A stretch of 39,141 nucleotides of DNA from a virus. Shown in pieces: positions 3,786 to 31,292 of the stretch (within the stretch, counting starts at the first letter, position 1; each line of letters opens with the position of its first letter). The stretch spans positions 1 through 39,141 of the IMG/VR virus record IMGVR_UViG_3300043395_002618. One strand, 5' to 3'. A program made the translations under genes and the position numbers. Below the pieces are notes generated by a model. The model had not been told where the DNA came from and made no database searches. It saw only the letters and a program-made list of their open reading frames with translations.

Positions 3786-3838
3786 TTGCCAGGTGTGACC
3801 CTATGCGCTATTGTGTGGAGACAGGCGGGAGGCCCGCC
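3786..3838 (+). promoter_or_regulatory. P-module 1: promoter plus leader hairpin
   Basis: TTGCCA (3786-3791), a 17-base spacer and TATTGT (3809-3814) make a sigma70-like promoter. The spacer holds the conserved GTGACCCTATGCGC block shared with P2 to P4. A perfect hairpin, GGCGGG-agg-CCCGCC (3824-3838), follows about 10 bases after the -10. It drives the gene at 3857. Confidence 0.65.
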
Positions 3839-4057: not shown

Positions 4058-4061
4058 CCCC

Positions 4062-4087
4062 ACGGCCCGCCGGAGCCTGTCCGGCAG
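4062..4087 (+). repeat. R-hairpin 1
   Basis: Intergenic hairpin GCCGGA-gcctg-TCCGGC (4069-4085) inside the repeated context ACGGCCC...CAGC. It sits four bases after a stop codon and 18 bases before the next ATG. Confidence 0.8.
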
Positions 4088-4105
4088 CATCCCGCCACTT
4101 CCCCT

Positions 4106-4276
4106 ATGGACATTTCCAACCGCGACGTTGCCACAGCACTTAGGTGCATGGCATGGGAACGCGCAAAAGGCGAACTACGGTCTATGTTGCACCCATTAGA
4201 TAATGGTTACAAAGAAATGGAAATGGAAGAAGATATCGAAAAGTTTATTAAACATTTTGAGGGGAATTATCTGTGA
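4106..4276 (+). CDS. Small early protein, deleted copy of the 4817 gene (56 aa)
   Basis: This is a 56-residue protein starting MDISNRDVATALRCMAWERA. It is nearly identical to the 64-residue product at 4817-5011, including flanking DNA. Relative to that copy it lacks ten residues net around FWREYENGKPV and carries a two-residue (ME) insertion. Both differences are multiples of three, so the frame is kept through to the shared ending IEKFIKHFEGNYL. That suggests a still-functional gene rather than decay. It is a predicted small helical, acidic protein. Function unknown. Confidence 0.7.
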   Translation: MDISNRDVATALRCMAWERAKGELRSMLHPLDNGYKEMEMEEDIEKFIKHFEGNYL

Positions 4277-4764: not shown

Positions 4765-4771
4765 CCCCCCC

Positions 4772-4798
4772 CACGGCCCGCCGGAGCCTGTCCGGCAG
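4772..4798 (+). repeat. R-hairpin 3
   Basis: Hairpin GCCGGA-gcctg-TCCGGC (4780-4796). The surrounding DNA matches R-hairpin 1 and is part of the duplicated cassette. Confidence 0.8.
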
Positions 4799-4816
4799 CA
4801 TCCCGCCACTTCCCCT

Positions 4817-5011
4817 ATGGACATTTCCAACCGCGACGTTGCCACAGCACTTAGGTGCATGGCATGGGAACGCGCAAAAGGCGAACTACGGTCTATGTTG
4901 CACCCATTTTGGAGGGAATACGAAAACGGAAAGCCTGTAGATAATGGTTACAAAGAAATGGAAGAAGATATCGAAAAGTTTATTAAACATTTTGAGGGGA
5001 ATTATCTGTGA
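4817..5011 (+). CDS. Small early protein, full-length copy (64 aa)
   Basis: This 64-residue protein is the longer member of the duplicated pair. Its shared opening is MDISNRDVATALRCMAWERA and its shared ending IEKFIKHFEGNYL, with the segment FWREYENGKPVDNGYKEM between, part of which is missing from the 4106 copy. Upstream and downstream R-hairpins are also duplicated. It is predicted to be mostly helical, with a charged C-terminal half. Small phage early proteins of this kind are often host-takeover factors, but nothing in the sequence identifies a target. Confidence 0.7.
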   Translation: MDISNRDVATALRCMAWERAKGELRSMLHPFWREYENGKPVDNGYKEMEEDIEKFIKHFEGNYL

Positions 5012-9326: not shown

Positions 9327-9760
9327 TCGACCCTGCATTGATTGCCGCCGCCGTGGCGGAAGTTGAGGCTGAGCAGCAGTCTCAGCAAAAACCACTCTCA
9401 AGCCGCGAATACCTGCCGCGCCTGAGCCTACAGAGCGTGATGCACCTGGAGCAGGCCTTGCAGGAAGCAAGGCGCGAGGGTCGGTCGTGGCAAGAAAGCA
9501 GGATCCTTCACCAGCTGCGTGTTCTCGGCTACCGCGCCGTGGCGGAAGTTGAGGCTGTGCAGCCTTGGCAAGAGCCCAGCTCCACCATCGAATACCTGGA
9601 ACAGGCACTGCAACGGGCCAAGGACGATGGTCAAACGGGGGACGAGGCGTGGATTCTGGACCAGCTGCGTCTTTTCAGGGGTGACTGGGACCAACAGGAG
9701 TGGGGTTACATCGACCTGCAAGAGTTGAGAAAGTCCTGGGATGCTGTCCGCCACTGCTGA
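9323..9760 (+). CDS. Hypothetical protein with internal duplication (145 aa)
   Basis: The protein contains two copies of a roughly 58-residue unit. Each starts with AVAEVEA, continues through an EYL segment and LEQALQ with a charged helix, and ends in ILHQLR or ILDQLR. The DNA of the unit starts is almost identical (ccgtggcggaagttgaggct in both). It is an all-helical repeat protein. It overlaps its upstream neighbour by ATGA, and its last 20 bases contain the terL start. Function unknown; a packaging accessory is possible from position alone. Confidence 0.6.
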   Translation: MIDPALIAAAVAEVEAEQQSQQKPLSSREYLPRLSLQSVMHLEQALQEARREGRSWQESRILHQLRVLGYRAVAEVEAVQPWQEPSSTIEYLEQALQRAKDDGQTGDEAWILDQLRLFRGDWDQQEWGYIDLQELRKSWDAVRHC

Positions 9761-11105
9761 CCCCATCTCCGCGGCCCTGGCGAGGGAGCGGCTGCGGGGC
9801 ATCGGCGGCAGGTTCTACAGGGGCTCCCTGGATGACCTGATGGCCACCATGCGCAGCCAGCTGCATGGCCGGCAGGTGGATCTTTTCGACGACGTTACGT
9901 CCGCCGAGATCGGGGTAGTGGCCGGCTACGGCAGCGGGAAGACGATCGCAGACTGTTACAAAGCCATTCAGCTCAGCATCCTGAACCCAGGGTTCACCGG
10001 AGCTGTGCTGGAGCCGACCTATGGCATGGTGGAAGAAATATGGATGCCGAAGTTTGAAGAAGTGCTAGATAGGCTAGAGATACCTTATACGTTCAGGCGC
10101 AAAGAGAAACTTCCCGAACACGTATTGCACTTTAAGGGCTTTAGTAGCACCGTAGTAGGAAGAAGCTTTGAGAACTATAAGCGCATCGTTGGCCCTGACT
10201 GGGCATGGTGCATTGGCGACGAAGTGGATACGGTGAAGGCGTCAATCTGCCGCAAGGCCTATAAGAAAATCGTCGGCCGGGTTCGAGTCGGCAAGGTAAA
10301 TCAGAAAATTAACTCATCAACGCCGGAGGGTTTCCAATGGCACTATGAGATGTACGGATCAGAGAAGGGCCAGGCTGTTGAAGGTCGGAGGCTCATCAGG
10401 ATGTCAAGCGACGACAACCCCCATCTGTCGCCTGGCTTCTTTGAAGAGATGGAGAAGAACTATACGCAGGAAGAGCTAATCGCCTACCGGCATGGGCAAT
10501 ACGTCAACCTTGCAACCGGCAGGGTATGGTATAAGTTCACTAGAGAAAGAAACGTCAGGCCAGTTGAATACAAGGAAGGTGAAACCATAATCCTGGGGGT
10601 TGACTTCAACGTCGGCAACACCAACGCCATTGCCATGGTTCGGCGCGGCAGGGAGGCGCACGTGTTTGCCGAGATCAAGGCTTATGACACCGCGAAGCTT
10701 GGGCAGGAGGTCAGGCGCCGCTGGCCTGAGGCCAGGATCCAGGGCTACCCTGACTCCAGCGGTGGGAACCACTCAACCAACAGCACTAGGACCGATATAG
10801 CAATCCTGCAAGACTTCGGAATCAGCAATATGTCGCCAGCGGCCAACCCTCCGGTAAGGGACCGTATCAACACGACTAACGCGATGTTCTGTAATGCCAA
10901 GGACGAAGTACGGCTGTTCGTTGATCCCAGTTGCAAGGGTCTAATCGACGATCTGGAGCAGCACAGCTACAACGAAAAAGGCGACCCGGACAAAGAAGGC
11001 GGCAACGATCACCGAACGGATGCTTTGAGCTACCCAATCCACAGGATTTTCGAGATCGGCCGCGCCACGACTGGCAAGGCTGTCCGGGGGATTAGGCTGT
11101 ACTGA
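9741..11105 (+). CDS. terL: Terminase large subunit
   Basis: A 454-residue packaging motor. The ATPase has Walker A AGYGSGKT (61-68) and Walker B WCIGDE with the acidic pair at 160-161. The C-terminal RNase H-like nuclease shows GVDFNVGNT (Asp288), YPDSSGG (Asp338) and HRTDALSYPI (Asp427), the usual three-acid metal site. The length is normal. It cuts and pumps DNA into the procapsid through the portal at 13157. The start at 9741 lies inside the end of the previous gene, suggesting translational coupling. The middle part is somewhat more AT-rich than its surroundings. Confidence 0.95.
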   Translation: MLSATADPISAALARERLRGIGGRFYRGSLDDLMATMRSQLHGRQVDLFDDVTSAEIGVVAGYGSGKTIADCYKAIQLSILNPGFTGAVLEPTYGMVEEIWMPKFEEVLDRLEIPYTFRRKEKLPEHVLHFKGFSSTVVGRSFENYKRIVGPDWAWCIGDEVDTVKASICRKAYKKIVGRVRVGKVNQKINSSTPEGFQWHYEMYGSEKGQAVEGRRLIRMSSDDNPHLSPGFFEEMEKNYTQEELIAYRHGQYVNLATGRVWYKFTRERNVRPVEYKEGETIILGVDFNVGNTNAIAMVRRGREAHVFAEIKAYDTAKLGQEVRRRWPEARIQGYPDSSGGNHSTNSTRTDIAILQDFGISNMSPAANPPVRDRINTTNAMFCNAKDEVRLFVDPSCKGLIDDLEQHSYNEKGDPDKEGGNDHRTDALSYPIHRIFEIGRATTGKAVRGIRLY

Positions 11106-11912: not shown

Positions 11913-12893
11913 CTACCGCTTTTTTGCGGACTTGCGGGGCTTCTTCGGTGCTGCTGGCTTAGCCGCTGGCGTAGCCCTGCTGACAGGCACAATCGCCCCG
12001 CCAGGGGATCGCACAATGGCCCCGCCGCGGCTGGTGGCTGGAGCGACTGCCTTCTTCGGCTTGGCCGCAGCCGTCGCGGTCTTCGCGGGCTTAGCCGCTG
12101 GCTTCTTCCTGCTGCTTGTTCCTCGCGATTCCTCCAGATTGCGCACCTTGCGGGCGGCACCCTGGTAGGCCTGTACGACAGCCCGGATGTTCCTGGCGCC
12201 TGAGTCCGTGCGCCCCCTCAGATCTCTGATGGATGTTCGCCCTGCGGCTCGCATGCCTATCTCACGCATCTCTGCCCGCGCTTTGCGATATTTTCTCTCA
12301 GCCGCGCTTACCTGCTTCTTTGAGGTCTTCGCTGGTTTCGCTGCAGCTGGTTTCGCTGCAGCTGGTTTCGCTGCGGCTGGAGTGGCTTGCCTCGCAGGCT
12401 TGGCCTTGGAGACAGGCACAATCGCCCCGCCAGGGGATCGCACAATGGCCCCGCCGCGGCTGGTGGCTGGAGTGGCAGCCTTTTTCGCCTTGGGCTTCCG
12501 TGCGGGCTTCTCTGCCGCTGGCTTTGCCGCATCAGCCGCCTTACCGGCCCGCGTCGGACTGCGCTTGGTTCCGGTTCCTGTCACCGCGTAGCGACTGCGA
12601 GCACGATCCAGCGTTGCAGCCGATCGCGCAGTCTTCGCGCTGACGGTTCCGGTCGCCTTGCGCTCCGCCGCCACCTGCCGTTGCAGTTCCCGTTGCCGCG
12701 TCAGCGCTCTGCCCCGCGCTGTAGTGGTCTTCGGCCCTGCTACCGCCTTGGCGGGCCCTGCAGCCGCTGCGCTGGCCTTGGTGGCCTTGGTCGGCTTGGT
12801 GGTCTTGGTGGCAGCTGTCTCCGGCCGCTTGTTGCGGACCGTGCCCGATGAGGCAAACCGCCCCCGCGCGTCGCGTTTCAGTTGCCTAGCCAT
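11913..12893 (-). CDS. Histone H1-like Lys/Ala/Pro-rich protein (326 aa)
   Basis: The 326-residue product is dominated by K, A, P, R and T, with repeats of AAKPA and KPAKTA type, as in bacterial histone H1-like nucleoid proteins. Two identical segments, SRGGAIVRSPGGAIVPVS, come from a 62-bp direct repeat. A less repetitive helical part (AERKYRKARAEMREIGMRAAGRT) separates them. The N-terminus MARQLKRDARGRFASSG resembles phage DNA-associated proteins. It probably coats or condenses DNA in the head or in the infected cell. It is antisense to the head operon and has its own L-box upstream. It ends with A AAA AAG CGG TAG. Confidence 0.7.
   Translation of the reverse strand: MARQLKRDARGRFASSGTVRNKRPETAATKTTKPTKATKASAAAAGPAKAVAGPKTTTARGRALTRQRELQRQVAAERKATGTVSAKTARSAATLDRARSRYAVTGTGTKRSPTRAGKAADAAKPAAEKPARKPKAKKAATPATSRGGAIVRSPGGAIVPVSKAKPARQATPAAAKPAAAKPAAAKPAKTSKKQVSAAERKYRKARAEMREIGMRAAGRTSIRDLRGRTDSGARNIRAVVQAYQGAARKVRNLEESRGTSSRKKPAAKPAKTATAAAKPKKAVAPATSRGGAIVRSPGGAIVPVSRATPAAKPAAPKKPRKSAKKR
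11919..11925 (-). other. Candidate frameshift heptamer A AAA AAG
   Basis: On the minus strand the in-frame heptamer A AAA AAG lies one codon before the TAG stop of the histone-like gene. A -1 shift would add only about 27 residues, while +1 or -2 enters the long downstream frame. One missing A in the six-A run would also fuse the two, so sequencing error is possible. Confidence 0.35.
11982..12043. repeat. 62-bp direct repeat, copy A
   Basis: Identical over 62 bases to 12411-12472. It begins with gacaggcacaatcgccccgc and ends with ggtggctggag. On the minus strand it encodes the GGAIV-containing segment. Confidence 0.9.
12343..12387. repeat. 15-bp tandem repeat, three copies
   Basis: GCTGGTTTCGCTGCA-type units in a row encode consecutive AAKPA pentapeptides in the histone-like protein. 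This is the usual way such tails expand and contract. Confidence 0.75.
12411..12472. repeat. 62-bp direct repeat, copy B
   Basis: Second copy of the repeat at 11982-12043, 368 bases away inside the same gene. Recombination between the copies would delete an internal segment. Confidence 0.9.
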
Positions 12894-12913: not shown

Positions 12914-12928
12914 TCTAGTTTGCCTAGC
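12914..12928 (-). promoter_or_regulatory. L-box upstream of the histone-like gene
   Basis: On the minus strand: CTAGGCAAACTAGAA, about 20 bases before the ATG at 12893. It overlaps the stop of the DUF6496 gene and points the same way as the gene it precedes. Confidence 0.6.
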
Positions 12929-13127: not shown

Positions 13128-13142
13128 GGGGCAAACTAGGGG
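13127..13142 (+). promoter_or_regulatory. L-box upstream of portal gene
   Basis: GGGGCAAACTAGGGGA, 14 bases before the portal ATG. GCAAACTAG is exact. Confidence 0.65.
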
Positions 13143-13156
13143 AAAGCGTCGATGTA

Positions 13157-14668
13157 ATGCCTCCCACGCCTGATGTCACCCTGATTGATCGCGGGCCCGG
13201 CAACGAACCGTTCAGGGCCAGATTTCAACCCCTGGCGGGTGCTCTGGGCGGTAGTGGCAGCAGCTTCCGAGAGCTGAAGGTCTATGAACCTGGCATCTCG
13301 TGGACGAAGCAGGAGCCTCGCTGGCGCCTGATTGAGCAGTTGGTGCAAGGCACCATGGGGATGCAAGCAGCGGGTACAACCTATCTACCGCAAATGCCAG
13401 ATGAGGCCGACGATTCTTACAGGATTCGCCTGGCTAACTCTGTCTGCCCTCCGTACTACCTACGGCTTGAGCAGATGCTGGCCGGCATGTTGACGCGCAA
13501 GCCGGTAAGGCTTAACAACGTGCCTGAAGCTATGCAAGAACACTTTCTCGATATAGACATGATGGGGCACGGTCTTGACGTGTTCTTACAAAACATCGCG
13601 CGGAGGTGTCTGCGCTACGGCCACATTGGGGTCTTGGTTGATTTTCCGCGTGGCGATGAAGGCGACGACACACCGGTAACCGACTTTCGGCGCCCCTACT
13701 GGGTTCCCTACAGCCCTCGCGATATTCTGGGATGGAAAACTGATGTAGTCGATGGAAGCCTAAAATTGACCGAAGTTCGCCTGTACGAAGAGCTGACCGT
13801 GCCTTATGGCACATACGGGGAGGAACAAGTTGCACAGGTGAGAGTGCTAAGACCAGGATCCTTTGAGCTGTTCAGATACCAGCCCAGTAAGTCGCGTGAC
13901 TGGGAGTTGATCAGCGAAGGTGCAACCAATATCGACGAAATACCTTTCGGCATAGCATACTCTAATCAAATTGCAATACTCGAATCAAGCCCGCCGCTTG
14001 AGGAGATTGCCTGGCTCAACCTTCAGGCTTACCGCTGCGAGTCTGACCAGAACAACATTCTTCACGTGGCAGCCGTGCCGCGCTACAACCTCTTTGGCGT
14101 GCCCGCTGAGGTTGAGAAGGTGACATCAGGCCCTGCCACGGCTACGGCTTTCCCCGTTGATGCTCGGGCTGAGTTTGCCGAGCCAACAGGCACCAGCTAC
14201 GACGCGCGATTCAACCAGCTTGACCGCATCAAGGCTCAGATTGCAGAGCTTGGCATGGCTGCCGTTCTTGGTCAGAACATGACAAACCAGGCCGCAGAGG
14301 CCAAGGCCATCGACCGCAGTCAGGGAGATGCGGCGTTGCAAGCGGTCGCCATCGGCCTGCAGGATCTACTGGATACATGCATGGGGTTTCATGCGCGGTT
14401 CATGGGACTTGCTGACGGTGGCAGCTCAGCCGTTAACCGCGATTTCGTGTCGTCGCGTCTGGATCCGGCCGAAGTTGCTCAGTTGATTCAGCTACGCATT
14501 AACAACGACATCAGCCAGGAACTGCTTTTAACGCGCCTTGCGGAAGGCGAATGGCTGGGCGGTGACTTCGATGTTGAGCTTGAGATTGAGAAGACCGCAC
14601 AAGAGAAGGCTCGAGCCCTTGCTGAGCAGCAGGCACAGCTTGACGCCGGCCTCAGCGGGCTACCATGA
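13157..14668 (+). CDS. Portal protein (DUF4055 family)
   Basis: The 503-residue product fits the DUF4055 family used as portal proteins in many siphoviruses: YLPQMPDEADDSYRIRLAN, the LEQMLAGMLTRKP segment, a long helical stretch around SQGDAALQAVAIGLQDLLD, and an acidic/Gln-rich C-terminus. As a dodecameric ring at one vertex it would conduct DNA and nucleate procapsid assembly. It sits after terminase and before scaffold and capsid, the canonical order apart from the inserted minus-strand island. ATGTAATG at the start means a two-codon start-stop ORF (13152-13157) touches the true ATG. Confidence 0.85.
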   Translation: MPPTPDVTLIDRGPGNEPFRARFQPLAGALGGSGSSFRELKVYEPGISWTKQEPRWRLIEQLVQGTMGMQAAGTTYLPQMPDEADDSYRIRLANSVCPPYYLRLEQMLAGMLTRKPVRLNNVPEAMQEHFLDIDMMGHGLDVFLQNIARRCLRYGHIGVLVDFPRGDEGDDTPVTDFRRPYWVPYSPRDILGWKTDVVDGSLKLTEVRLYEELTVPYGTYGEEQVAQVRVLRPGSFELFRYQPSKSRDWELISEGATNIDEIPFGIAYSNQIAILESSPPLEEIAWLNLQAYRCESDQNNILHVAAVPRYNLFGVPAEVEKVTSGPATATAFPVDARAEFAEPTGTSYDARFNQLDRIKAQIAELGMAAVLGQNMTNQAAEAKAIDRSQGDAALQAVAIGLQDLLDTCMGFHARFMGLADGGSSAVNRDFVSSRLDPAEVAQLIQLRINNDISQELLLTRLAEGEWLGGDFDVELEIEKTAQEKARALAEQQAQLDAGLSGLP

Positions 14669-15622: not shown

Positions 15623-15638
15623 GAGGCAAACTAGGGGA
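15623..15638 (+). promoter_or_regulatory. L-box upstream of major capsid gene
   Basis: GAGGCAAACTAGGGGA, 59 bases before the capsid ATG, the longest L-box leader. The leader contains an imperfect hairpin around GCTGTGCC...GGCCGACAGC. Confidence 0.65.
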
Positions 15639-15697
15639 CGGGAAAGCTGTGCCGACCCGGGGCCTGTGGCCGACAGCCAACTAACCCCTAGCCTCAA

Positions 15698-16783
15698 ATG
15701 GCATTTCTCTACAGACCGGATACGAAGATTTACGATCCGTTCTCAAACTACATTGACGAACAGAGCACCCTTCGCTCTAAGTTCGTCGCAAGCGGGATCG
15801 TAAGCAACAATCCCATCATCGCCCAAAACGTCACCAAGGGTGATGCTTTCAAAATCCCGAACTGGCAACCCAACTTGCAAGGGGATGTTCAAATCCCCAA
15901 GGAAAGCGTGCCGCTGAGCGTCAACAAGCTTGGCAGCAACGAACAGAAAGGCGTAGTCTTTCACCGCGCCAATGTTTGGGGCTCCAGCGATCTGGCTAAA
16001 ATGGCCGTAGGCGCTGAGAACGACCCGATGGGAGCAATTGCTCGCAGGATTTCAGATTGGGTGCTCTGGGCCGATCAGCTCGACATCCTGGCGACGCTCT
16101 CCGGCGTGTTTGGCGCCCTTGGCACCAGCAATGCCAGCGCCGCGTTCGCTGATATGTGCGTTGACGCCAGCGGCAGCGGCGAAACTGATTTCAGCGTGGG
16201 TCACGTCGTTCGCGCTGATGGCATCCTTGGTGAAGATGCCGACACTTTCGGGGCCATGGTTGTACATCCCGCGATCTACAGTTATCTGAGGATTCGCGAG
16301 ATGATCAACTACGTCAACGCCAAAGAGTTACCTGGCATCACCGCAAGCACCGCAGCGGCCGGAAGTATCACCAGCAGCAATGCTGTGGATGGTGATTTCT
16401 CCAATGCCTTTAGCTCCAATGGGCTGGTGCCGATGTTCGGCAGCAAAGCCGTGATCGTGTCCGACAATGCCCCGCGTACGGGATCCTCTGGTTCCTACAA
16501 ATATGGGGTGTATATTTTCAAGCCAGGGGCTCTTGGCCAGGCCTTCCAGAATCCCCTGCGGACGGAAGGTGATCGGGACATCCTCACTGGCGGCGGCGAG
16601 GACATCGTCAAGGTCCAATGGGACAAGTGTATTCATCCGCTGGGTGCCAGCTGGGTGGGCTCCATTCCCGAAGGTGGCCCCAGCGCCGCCGATCTGGCAA
16701 CCGCCAGCAACTGGGCTAAGGTATTCGACAAGAAAAACATTGGCGTAGCCCGCATTACCTGTACCTGCCCCATTGAGCTGTAA
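15698..16783 (+). CDS. Major capsid protein
   Basis: The 361-residue protein begins MAFLYRPDTKIYDPFSNYID and shows the pattern of phage coat proteins: early segments NVTKGDAFKIPNWQ and an ANVWGSSDLAKMAVGAENDP helix region, then VVHPAIYSYLRIREMI and a late YKYGVYIFKPGALGQAF. A final strand contains HPLGASWVG. The order after scaffold, the size and the strong L-box leader support the call. It forms the icosahedral shell, probably of HK97 fold, by family inference. The nearest family is the phage coat protein type seen in many cyanobacterial prophages. Confidence 0.85.
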   Translation: MAFLYRPDTKIYDPFSNYIDEQSTLRSKFVASGIVSNNPIIAQNVTKGDAFKIPNWQPNLQGDVQIPKESVPLSVNKLGSNEQKGVVFHRANVWGSSDLAKMAVGAENDPMGAIARRISDWVLWADQLDILATLSGVFGALGTSNASAAFADMCVDASGSGETDFSVGHVVRADGILGEDADTFGAMVVHPAIYSYLRIREMINYVNAKELPGITASTAAAGSITSSNAVDGDFSNAFSSNGLVPMFGSKAVIVSDNAPRTGSSGSYKYGVYIFKPGALGQAFQNPLRTEGDRDILTGGGEDIVKVQWDKCIHPLGASWVGSIPEGGPSAADLATASNWAKVFDKKNIGVARITCTCPIEL

Positions 16784-19148: not shown

Positions 19149-19715
19149 GTGCCAGCCGTGGCCGAACAGCAACTCAATCTGTTCGGCCCGGCTGATGACA
19201 AGCCGGTTGTCAGAAATCATCTGGCAACGCCTCTGACGCGGGAAGAATCGCGAAAGATTGGCAAGATGTACGCGGAGAACATCAGGCTAGTAGGGAAGTT
19301 TCAGGCCAAGATGCGAGAAAAATATGGGCGCTGTCTACCGTCTGAAGATATAAACAGTGCCGTTGATATTGCATTCATTAAGGCAGCTAGGACCTGGAAC
19401 CCGGAGCGGGGAACATTCAGCACAATTTTCGGGCACTTCGCCGCTGGTGAGGTTCGCCACGCGATCAAGGCAGCCGGTAACTGGGGAGTCTCCGCCACGC
19501 AGCGGGCACGCCTGGCGGGGATGCAAGCCCGGCGGATGCTGGAAGCCGGCATGACGGCGGCGGAAGTGTGCCAGGAGATGGCGATCACGCAGGTTGATCT
19601 ACTGGACGTGCTGCGGGCCACCACGGGCCTAGCGCATGATGTCCAGGGGTTCGGGTTACACGTGTGCGACCGTCCAACCCCCTGGGAGCTGCTGGAGGAC
19701 GGCGAGGCAAACTAG
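19149..19715 (+). CDS. Sigma-factor-like protein with N-terminal clamp-binding-like motif
   Basis: GTG start, 188 residues. Residues 64-108 (PSEDINSAVDIAFIKAARTW, NPERGTFSTIFGHFAAGEVR) follow the sigma region 2 pattern: acidic entry, IKAARTWNPERG, FST-F, and a helix before HAIK. Residues 118-158 contain MLEAGMTAAEVCQEM-AITQVDLLDVL, a helix-turn-helix-like unit that could act as region 4. The extreme N-terminus is AEQQLNLFGP; QLNLF matches the bacterial beta-clamp-binding pentapeptide QLxLF. The expected role is late-gene transcription with host RNA polymerase. An L-box overlaps its stop. Sigma-like assignment good, clamp binding inferred. Confidence 0.7.
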   Translation: MPAVAEQQLNLFGPADDKPVVRNHLATPLTREESRKIGKMYAENIRLVGKFQAKMREKYGRCLPSEDINSAVDIAFIKAARTWNPERGTFSTIFGHFAAGEVRHAIKAAGNWGVSATQRARLAGMQARRMLEAGMTAAEVCQEMAITQVDLLDVLRATTGLAHDVQGFGLHVCDRPTPWELLEDGEAN

Positions 19716-19734: not shown

Positions 19735-20484
19735 ATGGCTACCGGGGTTTACAAGGCAGCGCTCAACATTCGGTTGTTCATGAAGCTGGGAACCACCGCA
19801 AGCAGCGTCCCAACCAGCTCCATTGGGATGACTGAGATTCTCAGCCTGTCGGATGCGAGCATTTCCACCCAGCCAGAGAAACAATCAGCATCCGACTATC
19901 AAACGCCTAATGGGTATAGCCAGCAACTAATAACCAAGAAAACCGCGTCCATGCCGATACAGCTAAACCTCGACGTAACCAGCGCAGGATATGCGCTGCT
20001 CAAACGCGCCGAAAATGGGGCGCCTAGTGGCGTTACCGTGCAAATGTGGAGAGAGCTGCCATTGTTTGGTAGCACCAACACGGATCCACAGGCTGAGGCA
20101 GCTGTTGGATTTATTGAAAACTATAACGAGGCTTTCGCCAATGGCGGCATTATGACGATAACATTCAATTTCATTAATTACAGTTCTGTGTACACCTATC
20201 AACAAGGCGATGGCCTGGCCACCCTGACGCTCACCAACCCTGGCGCGGGTCTGACTGCCGGCACCGGTATCCCCCTGGTTCCCGTAACGCCAGCAGCCGG
20301 GGATATGTCCGGCCTGGGCGGCACGGCGACTATCACCGTGAACGGAAGCGGCGTCATCCAAACCGCAACGATCGTGGATGCTGGCCGAAACTTCCGGGTG
20401 GGCGACACGCTGACCATGACCGATCCTGCCGTGGTCGGAGTGGGCGACACGGCGCCGTTGTTCACGGTGGCGACGGTCTCCTAA
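19735..20484 (+). CDS. Major tail (tube) protein
   Basis: 249 residues from the ATG at 19735. The N-terminal two-thirds (VYKAALNIRLFMKLGTTASS, NLDVTSAGYALLKRAENGAP, QAEAAVGFIENYNEAFANGG, MTITFNFINYSSVYTY) fit a siphovirus tail tube protein. The last 80 residues form a separate Gly/Thr-rich domain (AGLTAGTGIPL, VDAGRNFRVGDTLTM) resembling surface-exposed domains found on tail tubes. The protein polymerises around the tape measure. Its stop TAA overlaps the stop of the convergent minus-strand gene (CTAA). Confidence 0.8.
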   Translation: MATGVYKAALNIRLFMKLGTTASSVPTSSIGMTEILSLSDASISTQPEKQSASDYQTPNGYSQQLITKKTASMPIQLNLDVTSAGYALLKRAENGAPSGVTVQMWRELPLFGSTNTDPQAEAAVGFIENYNEAFANGGIMTITFNFINYSSVYTYQQGDGLATLTLTNPGAGLTAGTGIPLVPVTPAAGDMSGLGGTATITVNGSGVIQTATIVDAGRNFRVGDTLTMTDPAVVGVGDTAPLFTVATVS

Positions 20485-21385: not shown

Positions 21386-21400
21386 CCCTAGTTTGCCGCC
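21386..21400 (-). promoter_or_regulatory. L-box for the minus-strand neck genes
   Basis: Minus strand GGCGGCAAACTAGGG, directly before the ATG at 21384. With 21402-21416 it forms a divergent pair separated by one base. Confidence 0.6.
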
Positions 21401-21401
21401 T

Positions 21402-21416
21402 GAGGCAAGCTAGAAG
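21402..21416 (+). promoter_or_regulatory. L-box variant upstream of tape measure
   Basis: GAGGCAAGCTAGAAG, one base different from GCAAACTAG, 14 bases before the tape measure ATG. An AGAAGGCGGAGG stretch follows and could serve as Shine-Dalgarno. Confidence 0.55.
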
Positions 21417-21430
21417 AAGGCGGAGGCTGC

Positions 21431-24400
21431 ATGTCGGAGAATCTGGGCGATGCGGTCCTGGTCGTCAGGGCTGACACGACGCAACTTGAAGCCGGCTTCA
21501 GGCATGCCGAGGAACGAGCTCGCCAGGCGGGGGCGTCGGCACGGGAGGCCTTCCAGGCTCCTGCCAACAGCATCGCGGGGTTGCAGGCGAAGCTTGCGGA
21601 TCTACAGCAGTCGTTCCGGTTGGTCGAGATCGGATCGGCCGAGTTCAACAAGCTCAGGAATCAGATCCTGGGAGTTGAGGCAGCGCTGAAAACGGCAGGA
21701 GCAGCAGGGAATAGCCTATCAGCGCTCAACGCCAAGTTACAGGGACTGCAGCAAGCATTACAAGCTGTTGATTTCAATACTCCAGCATTTGGCAATATTG
21801 AAGCGGAGATAAAGAGCATTCAACGTCAACTGGCGACAGTAGGTGCATCCAGTAACAGTATTGCGGTGCTGAGCGCTAGGCTGCAAGACCTACAACAATC
21901 ACTCCAAAAAGTTGATGCCGCTAGTCCTGCATTTCGGAAACTGCGATCAGAAATCAAAGGCGTTGAACTTCAACTTGCAACAGCCGGAGCCGCTTCTAAC
22001 AGCATAACAGGGCTGAATGCCAAGCTCGCGGATCTACAGCAGTCGTTTCGAGCTGTGGGGATTGGTTCTAGTGATTTCCGTAAACTCCAGCGTGAAATTC
22101 AACGAACAGAGCAAGCCCTAGCAACTGTTGGTGTTTCTAGTAACAGCATCACGGCCCTTAACGTAAAATTACAAGGGCTACAAAAATCATTGCAAGGAGT
22201 TGATACGGCTAGTCCTACATTCCGTAGACTGCAATCAGAGATTAGAGGTGTTGAGCTAAGTCTTGCAACAGCCGGAGCCGCTGCTAACAGCATAACAGGG
22301 CTGAATGCCAAGCTGGCCGGCCTGCAGCAGTCGTTTCGGTCAGTCGAAATCGGAACACGAGATTTTCGTGAACTTCAGCGCGAAATCCAACGCACCGAAC
22401 GGGAGCTGGCCCGCGTGGATCAGACCCTGGCGGGCAGGCTGGCCAGGGGTGCCCGTGGGTTCGGCTCTGAGGCGCTCTTGGCGCTCGGGGCGGGCGGCGC
22501 TGCCGCTGGGGCAGGGTTCGCCGTTGGCGGGTTCCTGAAGGGCTCAATCGATCAGGCTGTTGAGCTTGAGAACGTCACCCGGAAGCTCACGGTGACCCTG
22601 GGCCCACAGGGCGCGGCTGGGGCGATCAACTTCACACGCGGGATTTCGCGGGAGCTGGGGTTGAGCTTCAATACGCTGGTTGATACCTACAGCAACTTCA
22701 CCGCAGCCGCTACGGCAGCAAATATCCCAATCGAGCAACAGCGTCAACTGTTCACCTCGGTCAGCCGCGCGGCGCAGGCCTACGGGCTGAGCAATGAACA
22801 GGTAGGGGGGACATTCCTGGCGCTGCAGCAGATCGCGAGTAAGGGCACCGTCAGCATGGAAGAGTTGAGATTGCAGTTGGCGGAGCGCTTGCCCGTGGCG
22901 TTGTCGGCTACCGCCAAGGGGCTGGGAATCACCCAGCGCGACCTGATCAAGTTGGTTGAATCTGGGAGGCTCACCGCAGGCCAGTTTTTCCCGGCGCTGT
23001 CCAAGGGGCTTAACGAGCTGACCAAGGGTGCGGCGGGGCTGGAGACATCAGCGCAGAAATTTCAGCGGTTTGGAAATGCCTGGCAGGAACTACAGCAGAG
23101 TATCGGGACTAATTTACTGCCTAGCATAACCGCGTCTGTTGTAGATCTCACGCTAGCGCTAGAGGGACTTCTGGTTCAACAAGAAGCAAGAGGCTTGCGT
23201 GAGATTTTTGGCCTTTCAACAGATCAGGCGGAGCAGGCTGTTGGCGCTTTGCGACGCATACGCGAAGAATACAACCTTACCGAGCAACAAGCGAAAAACA
23301 TTGCAAGTCAAGCTGTTGCCGCTAGCAGCAAGCAAACAAACATCTTTGGCGGCCCCATCGCTGGCGTCGGTGGTAATCGCGATATTTTTGGCGAATTAAA
23401 TCTAACCAACGATGAGTTTTTGAACTTTATTGAACAACTCAACATTAAAGCGGCCGAGTTCAGAAAAAACAACCGCGATACAACAGGCGAAACAAACAAG
23501 CAATCAGCCGCACTTTCCACAACCAACGATCAAATCCGTGATCGCAACCAGCAAACCCAGAAATCCCTAGACCTAGAACTACAGCGCTCCAAACTGCTGC
23601 AACAGCAGGCCAACGCATCCGCCCGCCTGGCGGGTGCACGGCAGACACCAGGCCTTGATGAGGCAGGCCGCGCCAACCTCGAAGCTGAGCTGACCATCGG
23701 CGAGAAGCTGCGGGCGCTCCAAATCTCCCGGCTGGAGCTAGCCAGGGAACAGGCCAAGCTCCCTGGCACTGGTGACGGCAAGGAGAACACGCAATCCCTC
23801 GCCAAGTTGGCGGAGCTTCAATCCCAGATCCGCACTGGTGAGATCGATGTAGCAGCGGCACGACTGGAAGGATCCAAAGCCGTCGCAGAAGCGGTCCGCA
23901 GCCAGCAGGAGCGGACCCGTCAACAGCGGCTAGAGACTCAGGGCGCCGCCGATCGGCTGGCGATCACCCGTCAGCAGACCGTGCTGGAGGCTGCCGCCGC
24001 CGCATCTCAGGGGCAGGTCTCCGCTACGGCCCTGCTCCAGCTCCAGCAGCGCGCCACCCTCGCGGAGAAGCTGCGGGCGCTCGATGCTGCCCGCGGCGCC
24101 CAGGCCACCGAGCTCGCCAGAGGGCCAGAGGCTGATCGGGTGGTCCTCCGAGACATCACCGAACGCATCGCCCGCGCCAATGCCGACGTGCGCCAGGCCT
24201 ACGCCGATGCTGGGCTGTCGCTGACCACCAATGCCCGCAACGCGGCAGAAGCCCTGCGGGGGGCCCAGCAGAACGTCCAGGGGATCCTGCGGGGCGGATT
24301 CGAGTTTCTGACGCCAGAACTCCAGCGACAGCAGATCGAGCAAGCCCGCGCGGCGATCGAGCCACTCGTCAGCCGGGGGGTGATCCGGCAGGGGATTGAC

Positions 24401-28215: not shown

Positions 28216-28230
28216 GAGGCAAACTAGGGA
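28216..28230 (+). promoter_or_regulatory. L-box upstream of 28246
   Basis: GAGGCAAACTAGGGA, four bases after a stop and 15 bases before the next ATG. Confidence 0.65.
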
Positions 28231-28245
28231 ACAGCTAAAACAGCC

Positions 28246-28650
28246 ATGGCTTTAACAGTCCAACAATCAACCAAAGAGCTTGCGCGAATCGCCAATCTTG
28301 CCTATGAAGGCAAAACTATCAAGGTGGCACTCTGCAGTGTGGGATCTACGGGTTACACTGCTGAAAGCACGGTTTCTAACTGGCTGACAACCGAACAATC
28401 CGGTAATGGCTATGTTCGCTATTCGTTGGTGCTGAGTACAGGCGCCTATGACTCAACCGATGCAAGGTATGAAGTTCCATTCTTTGACGCCACCTTCACG
28501 GCTTCCGGATCTGGGTTTACCTATGACAGGATCGTTGTTTATGTTGATGGTGCCACTTATCCTCATAGCGTAATCACAGAAAGTCCGAATATCGCGCTAG
28601 TTTCCGGTCAGAGCAAAGTCTACAGGATCTTGCTTGCTGTTGACGACTGA
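28246..28650 (+). CDS. Tail-associated protein (134 aa)
   Basis: A beta-rich 134-residue protein (MALTVQQSTKELARIANLAY, then YEGKTIKVALCSVGSTGYT) resembling the small fibre or tip-attached proteins that many cyanobacterial phages carry after the hub gene. It starts its own L-box unit, and its stop overlaps the following ATG by one base. No enzymatic motif is seen. Confidence 0.55.
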   Translation: MALTVQQSTKELARIANLAYEGKTIKVALCSVGSTGYTAESTVSNWLTTEQSGNGYVRYSLVLSTGAYDSTDARYEVPFFDATFTASGSGFTYDRIVVYVDGATYPHSVITESPNIALVSGQSKVYRILLAVDD

Positions 28651-30273: not shown

Positions 30274-30815
30274 GGGCAACGATTCTTCGCGCCTGGCGGG
30301 AGCTTCAGGCGATCGAGCGGGAGCAGGCTGCCAGGGCTGAGCTCCCGATCGCCCAGGTTTCGGCGATGCTGGCCAACATCAACCGCGACACGGCCAAACA
30401 GCCGCAACCGTGGCCGGTTCAGGACTTCTGTTTCTACCGCGATCAGGAACGCACCAGCCGCGGCGGGATCTCGCCAGAGGCTGCAGCCGTGGCCCTGAGC
30501 CTGCGGCATGAGAACCGCTGTCCAGAGATCCTGATCGTCGCCTGGCCGTCGATCCTGGATGCCGCCGACGACACCACCAAGCCCCCGCCAGTGAGGGCGC
30601 TGCACAGCGACGACGACGCGGTCTGGATCTTGGCGCCGCAGATGACCCAGGGCGGCTGCCGCGGCGGGCTGGTGGCCGTGCGGGGCACCATGTCGGGACC
30701 CGTGCTGCTGCGGGAGCTGGATCGGCCCCTTCTCACACATCGGCTGGTGTTGCCCAAACGACCCAACTACGGCTGGCTGGAGGCTGATCTGTTCCTGGTG
30801 GGCGGGGCAAACTAG
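29635..30815 (+). CDS. Tail assembly chaperone, long form made by -1 frameshift (GT-like, about 393 aa)
   Basis: Translating zero frame to 30162 (176 codons) and then slipping back one base gives 217 more codons without a stop, ending at TAG 30813-30815. The added part contains WAAVFWRLSHAFPDQFHRET and FGRELRATILRAWRELQAIE, then a globular end with WLEADLFLVGGAN. No good start codon serves the second frame alone; its first possible start is TTG at 30219, deep inside the overlap. The arrangement is that of lambda G-GT: the short form in excess, the long form binding tail components. Confidence 0.7.
30156..30162 (+). promoter_or_regulatory. Programmed -1 frameshift heptamer A AAA AAG
   Basis: The zero-frame codons are CTA AAA AAG, so A AAA AAG obeys the X XXY YYZ rule. 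GC-rich DNA follows that could form a stimulatory stem. Both flanking frames are long and open. Confidence 0.75.
30804..30815 (+). promoter_or_regulatory. L-box upstream of 30819
   Basis: GGGGCAAACTAG, including the stop of the long chaperone form, three bases before the next ATG. This is too close for an ordinary leader unless transcription starts upstream of the box. Confidence 0.55.
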
Positions 30816-30818
30816 ACC

Positions 30819-31292
30819 ATGGACATTCGCACGCTACGAACATCGCTTGAGGCAACCCTGGCTAGCCAGCTGGGGGCATACACATATGGGAACGGCTCGA
30901 CCACTCCAGCAATCGCGGCGCGGGCATGGGGTGAAGCGCTGCCGCCGCGAACCACGGTGACGGGGTTGGAATGCTTAATCATAAGGAACCCAGAGCTAGA
31001 TCCAGTTGTGAGGCAATATCGGGAAGAGGTTGCGTTTCAACGCTGGACTGTGTTCCTGGTTGATTGGGGCGGTTCTGTTGACTTGCACGATGCAGCCTCT
31101 CGGCTGCTTTGGGCTTACCCTGGCAGTCGGACATTGCCGCCTCAAGCTCAACAAGGCGTTGGCCCTAAAGCATTGATGCGGATTGAGTTAACGACTTCGC
31201 CAGACTTTACGTTTGAGACTGGCGGATTGCTGCTTGAAGATGGCGGCTATCTGCTGCTCGAAGACGGCGGCAAGCTGTTGCTGGAGGTGTAA
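30819..31292 (+). CDS. Tail completion-like protein with LLLEDGG repeats (157 aa)
   Basis: The 157-residue product (MDIRTLRTSLEATLASQLGA, later GLECLIIRNPELDP and QRWTVFLVDWGGSVDLHDAA) resembles small tail terminator or completion proteins. The end is a short tandem repeat, GGLLLEDGGYLLLEDGGKLL, of a type seen as a beta-strand stacking element at the ends of phage tail proteins. Function is inferred from position and pattern. Confidence 0.5.
   Translation: MDIRTLRTSLEATLASQLGAYTYGNGSTTPAIAARAWGEALPPRTTVTGLECLIIRNPELDPVVRQYREEVAFQRWTVFLVDWGGSVDLHDAASRLLWAYPGSRTLPPQAQQGVGPKALMRIELTTSPDFTFETGGLLLEDGGYLLLEDGGKLLLEV

Follow-up and report, generated by a model that had tools for sequence, protein, structure and literature searches.

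In phage T4, late transcription involves gp55, gp33 and gp45 and is tied to replicating DNA (PMC7892883, PMC2988020), the contact between gp33 and the clamp being the essential one (PMC2988020). Among the cyanosiphoviruses, P-SS2 carries a group-3 sigma factor (ORF003) and S-CBS2 and S-CRES1 carry a SigF; these are related sigmas with regions 2 and 3 and no region 4, and their functions are annotated only. Neither the promoter box treated below nor a clamp-linked sigma outside the T4-like phages was found described earlier in the open-access literature, with most subscription papers not covered.

The DNA studied here, called the window, is a 39.1-kb virus contig from IMG/VR (39,141 nucleotides). 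It belongs to a virus of photosynthetic bacteria, a cyanosiphovirus, and its large terminase is closest to those of the cyanobacterial siphoviruses KBS-S-2A, S-H1 and MED4-184 (44–47% identity). The gene of interest (19149..19715, + strand) has a GTG start and encodes a protein of 188 amino acids. Its translation reads MPAVAEQQLNLFGPADD...IKAARTWNPERGTFST..., matching the description in a first-pass annotation, which had taken it for a sigma-like protein inside the structural operon. The gene does lie there, with the head-tail adaptor Ad1 on one side and a putative major tail (tube) protein on the other, the latter assigned from its position and a weak tail-tube match. We think it likely, while leaving considerable room for doubt, that the protein is the late sigma of a cyanosiphovirus, similar to T4 gp55 but of separate origin, and that it uses the host beta clamp; clamp binding and coupling to replication are both inferred.

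Sigma identity of the 188-residue protein

Taken by itself, the window protein matches the Pfam model Sigma70_r2 with 20.3 bits (E 4.8e-4), which is under the cut-off of 24 bits, and a PHROG sigma family at 6.9e-5. Its relatives in IMG/VR split into a clade A, which is 79–99% identical, and a clade B, which is 44–45% identical (L029, L022, L030 and L031). Three clade B members were scanned singly against Pfam, and all of them score above the cut-off for Sigma70_r2 (L029 26.2, L030 28.6 and L031 26.3 bits). A family profile searched against the PDB found SigB at 6e-5, in an alignment spanning residues 45–155. The AlphaFold model has a mean pLDDT of 68, with about 82–90 for most of residues 31–80 and values near 70 up to residue 110, and its fold matches sigma region 2 with a Z of 10.6 and an rmsd of 1.8 over 77 residues (sigma70 chain 7xya_F, besides many other sigma chains). 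A structure search without any sigma similarity would have refuted the original proposal, and this is not what was obtained. The region 2-like block claimed there is supported by sequence (Pfam, PHROG and clade B) as well as by the predicted fold; this domain, for recognition of the RNA polymerase coiled coil and the -10 element, covers residues 30–111 (19236..19481, +).

The helix-turn-helix-like end described in the same annotation holds only in part. An HTH-like segment is present at about residues 113–160 (19485..19628, +), but it resembles region 3, mainly by sequence, and no region 4, as is usual at the C-terminus, comes after it. By sequence profile, the segment after region 2 aligns with region 3 of SigB, SigF and SigG; the C-terminal half of the model resembles region 3 of SigF and SigB weakly (Z 5.2–5.3), at the same level as ParB-type HTHs. 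The absence of region 4 is seen in the alignment to TIGR02980 (SigBFG), which ends at profile position 146 of 227 and leaves some 20–25 residues as a short tail; L030 aligns to positions 8–146 of the same profile. Scores against TIGR02980 are far under the curated cut-offs. The case for sigma identity is strong, and the window protein is read as belonging to the sigma-70 family, with an affinity to SigB/F/G and with region 4 lost.

Used alone as a query, the window protein has no good match in cultured phages, and a profile search of the genome contigs with the family alignment found no relative. The link to the sigmas of the S-CRES phages and S-CBS2 was reached only through a clade B homologue and the family profile, the latter finding the SigF-like sigma of the cultured cyanosiphovirus S-CRES1. 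In the tree, the window clade is joined with the S-CRES/P-SS2 clade at only moderate support (84/85). S-CRES1 also encodes another sigma, besides a factor annotated as SPT5/NusG-like (gp7 and gp11, L070 4757-5533 and 6722-6985), suggesting that this phage may have a larger set of transcription regulators.

L-boxes in the window and in cultured phages

The window contains eight copies of a box with the consensus GGCAA[A/G]CTAG, here called the L-box, each located 3, 17–21 or 63 nt upstream of a late gene on the same strand. On the + strand, they are found at 13130..13139 (GGCAAACTAG, 17 nt before the portal gene at 13157), at 15625..15634 (63 nt before the major capsid gene at 15698), at 19706..19715 (overlapping the sigma gene at its end, and 19 nt upstream of the gene at 19735 for the putative major tail protein), at 21404..21413 (GGCAAGCTAG, 17 nt before the tape-measure gene at 21431), at 28218..28227 (18 nt before the gene 28246-28650) and at 30806..30815 (3 nt before the gene 30819-31292). 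On the - strand, there is one at 12915..12924, 21 nt before the gene 12893-11913, and one at 21388..21397, which is back to back with the tape-measure box and 3 nt before the gene 21384-20989. Leaderless mRNAs are predicted for both genes of the 3-nt class. The gene at 11913-12893 (-), with its own L-box at 12924, encodes a basic, Ala/Lys-rich, histone-H1-like protein; in clade B, a short protein similar to it is encoded upstream of the adaptor gene.

In a scan of the window with a position weight matrix (PWM), the eight sites score at least 20, while the next best site has 15.3 and is not near a gene start. Near-identical relatives of the window were part of the training set of the matrix, and these scores are therefore not independent. 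Of the 74 boxes in all fetched loci, 73 stand before an ORF on the same strand, compared with 26% of random positions. The fourth nucleotide after the box is an A in all eight window boxes, and where the box is 3 nt from the gene, this A is the first letter of the ATG. We infer that this A fits a transcription start and leaderless messages, with the caveat that the promoters are predicted and not mapped. Neither a -35 nor any other element was found upstream of the L-boxes. The early genes have a different promoter-like element, GTGACCNTATGCGCTAYWATA, with four copies at 3794, 5670, 6699 and 7072 (+), and it is found only in the early region of the window, from 3.8 to 7.1 kb. Other features of the window include a perfect 140-nt direct repeat (4058-4197 and 4769-4908), which duplicates the start of a small gene (MDISNRDVATALRCMAWERAKGELRSMLHP), and a predicted 60-nt leader of the capsid mRNA (15638-15697), which is similar in the clade A contigs seen and folds at -16.6 kcal/mol. 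An Rfam search of the window found nothing.

The earlier suggestion that L-boxes and sigma form one system gains independent support from S-CRES1, where the same box stands upstream of late genes and the sigma is a related one. A k-mer search of the upstream regions of S-CRES1 late genes, made with no L-box input and independent of the window-trained PWM, recovered GGAAGACTAG, GGAAAACTAG, GGCAAACTAG and their kin. The shared form of the box is GGNANNCTAG, which occurs in S-CRES1 and also in S-CRES3, S-CBS2 and P-SS2, mostly 17–23 nt before genes. In these phages, 51 copies are in forward and 6 in reverse orientation, and placement 13–23 nt before start codons is significant in each (P=3e-10 in S-CRES1, 3e-11 in S-CBS2, 1e-5 in S-CRES3 and 2e-5 in P-SS2). 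The 23–25 predicted promoters each of S-CRES1, S-CBS2 and S-CRES3 have no conserved -35 or upstream element. Only the 10-bp box is conserved, a feature of late promoters that consist of a -10 element alone, although these promoters, too, have been predicted and not mapped. In the S-CRES phages and S-CBS2, the boxes are placed directly after terminator-like T-runs. Placement of the box before genes was not seen in KBS-S-2A, S-H1, MED4-184, S-CBS1, S-CBS3 or S-LBS1, all of which are without this sigma; where L042/L043 and MED4-184 match GGCAAACTAG exactly, this looks like coincidence. The presence of the box follows the sigma clade and not the host, and the assignment of the L-box promoter family to the region-4-less sigma is strongly supported.

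Terminal clamp-type peptides and possible tethering to the host clamp

The string AEQQLNLFG, reported for the extreme N-terminus, is present as described. Within it, QLNLF (codons 8–12, 19170..19184, +) is a putative beta-clamp-binding peptide in a low-confidence tail with pLDDT values of 44–57, as expected for a disordered tail. The same QLNLF is the clamp-binding peptide of E. coli UmuC (residues 357–361), for which a crystal structure in complex with the beta clamp is available (PMC3716654). It is invariant in homologues of 82% identity and more. Codons 7–13 show no amino-acid change in 14 clade A sequences, while four of the seven codons vary synonymously; by this pattern of codon changes, the peptide is under purifying selection at the protein level. 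In clade B, this site is occupied by QLSLPG, QLALPG or QLAFPG, and the tail residues next to it diverge. Absence of QLNLF from close homologues had been named as a refutation of the proposal, and a clamp-type peptide is in fact kept, as QL[SA][LF]PG, even at 44–45% identity. The hexapeptide QLSLPL is a strong clamp binder (PMC4478557). The three clade B forms resemble it. Nevertheless, QLAFPG (L031), QLSLPG and QLALPG are without the final hydrophobic residue of the Hda-type hexapeptide, and this counts against the clamp reading. In the translated gene set of the window, QL[SDNAPT][LF][FP] has a single match in 11,963 residues, at residue 8 of the sigma. The large terminase (9741-11105) has a clamp-like string, QVDLFD, at residue 45, but it is internal. 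That the N-terminal peptide of the sigma binds the beta clamp is inferred, and there are no binding data.

Region 4 is also absent from the S-CRES/S-CBS2 sigma, the C-terminal end of which is QGSLF (QPSLF in one contig). Q[GP]SLF is found at the extreme C-terminus of seven homologues with otherwise variable C-terminal domains, and Q[G/P]SLF is, as far as the motif alone can tell, a second clamp-type peptide at the opposite terminus. In the case of S-CBS2, the deposited rpoS protein (L055 301-1036, NC_015463.1) is truncated compared with its relatives, and another frame of the same stretch ends in ...DGRLQGSLF, as they do. The region-4-less sigma of P-SS2 has no terminal clamp peptide, though the promoters are present; a lost C-terminus was considered as the explanation, but four relatives are without the peptide too, and the absence looks real. 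The proposed clamp tether is common but not universal in the group of region-4-less sigmas. In the ORF sets of ten phages and contigs, six of the terminal clamp-type matches are sigma genes. The corresponding enrichment statistic is not relied on, as it was calculated post hoc, with only a rough number for the other ORFs and with homologous sigmas included in the count. No terminal clamp peptide was found in the full-length cyanophage sigmas of S-CBS1, S-CBS3, S-LBS1, MaAM05 and S-N03, or in the other phage sigmas checked. The full-length sigma of KBS-S-2A (L023 7779-8708) ends in QLPLIP, a possible clamp hexapeptide, but the sister sigma of S-CBS1 is without it and nothing is drawn from this. 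DNA_pol3_beta has no match in the window gene set, nor in the clade B contigs, S-CRES1, S-CRES3, S-CBS2 or P-SS2. Synechococcus phage S-H1 has a DnaN-type beta clamp of its own (L048 18187-19236), shortly upstream of its terminase gene.

In the explanation we favour, the window protein together with the host core RNA polymerase would read the L-box as a -10-like element, and transcription would start at the A four nucleotides after it, making some mRNAs leaderless. Because there is no region 4 to grip a -35 element, the sigma would be held at the DNA by its QLNLF binding to a beta sliding clamp, most likely that of the host, since a search of the window for a beta-clamp gene was negative. Clamps loaded in the course of replication would then be a requirement for late transcription, and the virus-building genes would probably be switched on only where viral DNA is being copied. 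The sigma gene is itself downstream of the capsid L-box, for which reason the sigma probably amplifies its own synthesis, a positive feedback that read-through would set going at a low level. The position of the gene inside the late operon counts against the explanation, since late sigmas are usually produced earlier; so does the lack of a recognised gp33-like co-activator, given the essential role of the gp33–clamp contact in T4.

It is also possible, if unlikely, that the protein is an L-box late sigma that works without a clamp, with an incidental or otherwise used peptide and with timing set by sigma synthesis. P-SS2, where box-type promoters go with a sigma without the peptide, is a case in point, and disordered tails can acquire short linear motifs by chance. 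Such a reading has to contend with the purifying selection on the peptide, with the retention at 44% identity of a recognised alternative clamp-binding form and with the equivalent peptide at the opposite terminus of a related sigma lineage; in addition, a holoenzyme whose sigma has lost region 4 is, like that of T4, deprived of its -35 anchor. The peptide might instead occupy or poison the host clamp, so that host replication is shut down or the replisome redirected, and the sigma-like body would be a scaffold that binds DNA or RNA polymerase and not an initiation factor. QLNLF-type peptides compete for the clamp pocket, and the gene is in the structural operon and not among early regulators. 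We nevertheless regard poisoning as improbable, given a well-conserved region 2 that co-occurs with a dedicated promoter family, and a phage in which no clamp gene could be found and which would itself have to use the host clamp meanwhile.

Equally little credence is given to the L-box as a translational or mRNA-processing signal, with other targets for the sigma, even though the boxes are very near start codons (3–22 nt) and are followed by purine-rich sequence. The distances form discrete classes, one of which is the 63 nt in front of the capsid gene, and the A is at a fixed position whatever the distance to the ATG; box orientation, restriction to late genes and placement after terminator-like T-runs in the S-CRES phages and S-CBS2 all fit promoters, and the box goes with the sigma clade and not with the host. 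Lastly, the location of the gene between head-tail adaptor and putative tail-tube genes could mean that virions carry the sigma, or that it is synthesised only at the very end, for action early in the next infection. There is hardly any room for this idea, as the L-boxes precede structural genes and not early ones, which have their own promoter-like element, and in mass spectrometry of P-SS2 the group-3 sigma is listed with 0 peptides (PMC2784084). Extending the proposed clamp-tethered late sigma beyond the window, we consider it probable, with slightly less assurance than for the window protein itself, that coupling of late transcription to replication evolved separately a second time, in cyanosiphoviruses: a region-4-less SigF-type sigma would be tethered to the host beta clamp by a peptide at one of its ends (the N-terminus in one lineage, the C-terminus in another) and would read -10-only GGNANNCTAG promoters.

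Comparison with described systems

If this is true, the T4-like logic has arisen from a different sigma and probably with a host clamp, and so has evolved more than once; a suggested reason is that a sigma losing region 4 needs another hold at the promoter. The authors who described the P-SS2 group-3 sigma did not define its regulon (PMC2784084), for which the analysis also makes a proposal, and the promoter rule allows late genes to be predicted in the cultured marine cyanosiphoviruses S-CBS2, P-SS2 and S-CRES1. No gp55 chain is among the listed sequence and fold matches (Foldseek, VIA), and absence there is not proof. By analogy, we infer that the window protein works like gp55; it has not been shown to be a gp55.

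Like T4 gp55, the window protein is a diverged sigma-70 with region 2 and without region 4, it has a short terminal clamp-type peptide on a flexible tail, and its promoters have a -10-like element with no conserved -35; the dependence on clamps loaded in replication would be the logic of gp55 and gp45. The clamp peptide of gp55 is C-terminal, whereas that of the window protein is N-terminal, and the body of the window protein resembles SigB/F/G with a region-3-like HTH, unlike gp55. The T4 promoter is TATAAATA, compared with GGNANNCTAG in the window system. The T4 clamp is phage-encoded, in contrast to the host clamp that is the likely partner here, and no equivalent of the co-activator gp33 was recognised in the window phage. 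P-SS2, S-CBS2 and S-CRES1 share with the window the GGNANNCTAG box and its spacing before late genes. They differ in the clamp-type peptide, which is C-terminal in S-CRES/S-CBS2 and absent in P-SS2, and in gene location, as the sigma gene of S-CRES, S-CBS2 and P-SS2 is beside terminase and primase genes and that of the window is in the head-tail cluster. With the bacterial SigB, SigF and SigG (TIGR02980), regions 2–3 align by sequence, but the window family is without region 4 and has an added clamp peptide. E. coli UmuC (QLNLF) and the QLSLPL-type hexapeptide of Hda provide identical or near-identical peptides; these clamp partners are polymerases or replication regulators, whereas in the window the peptide is fused to a sigma.
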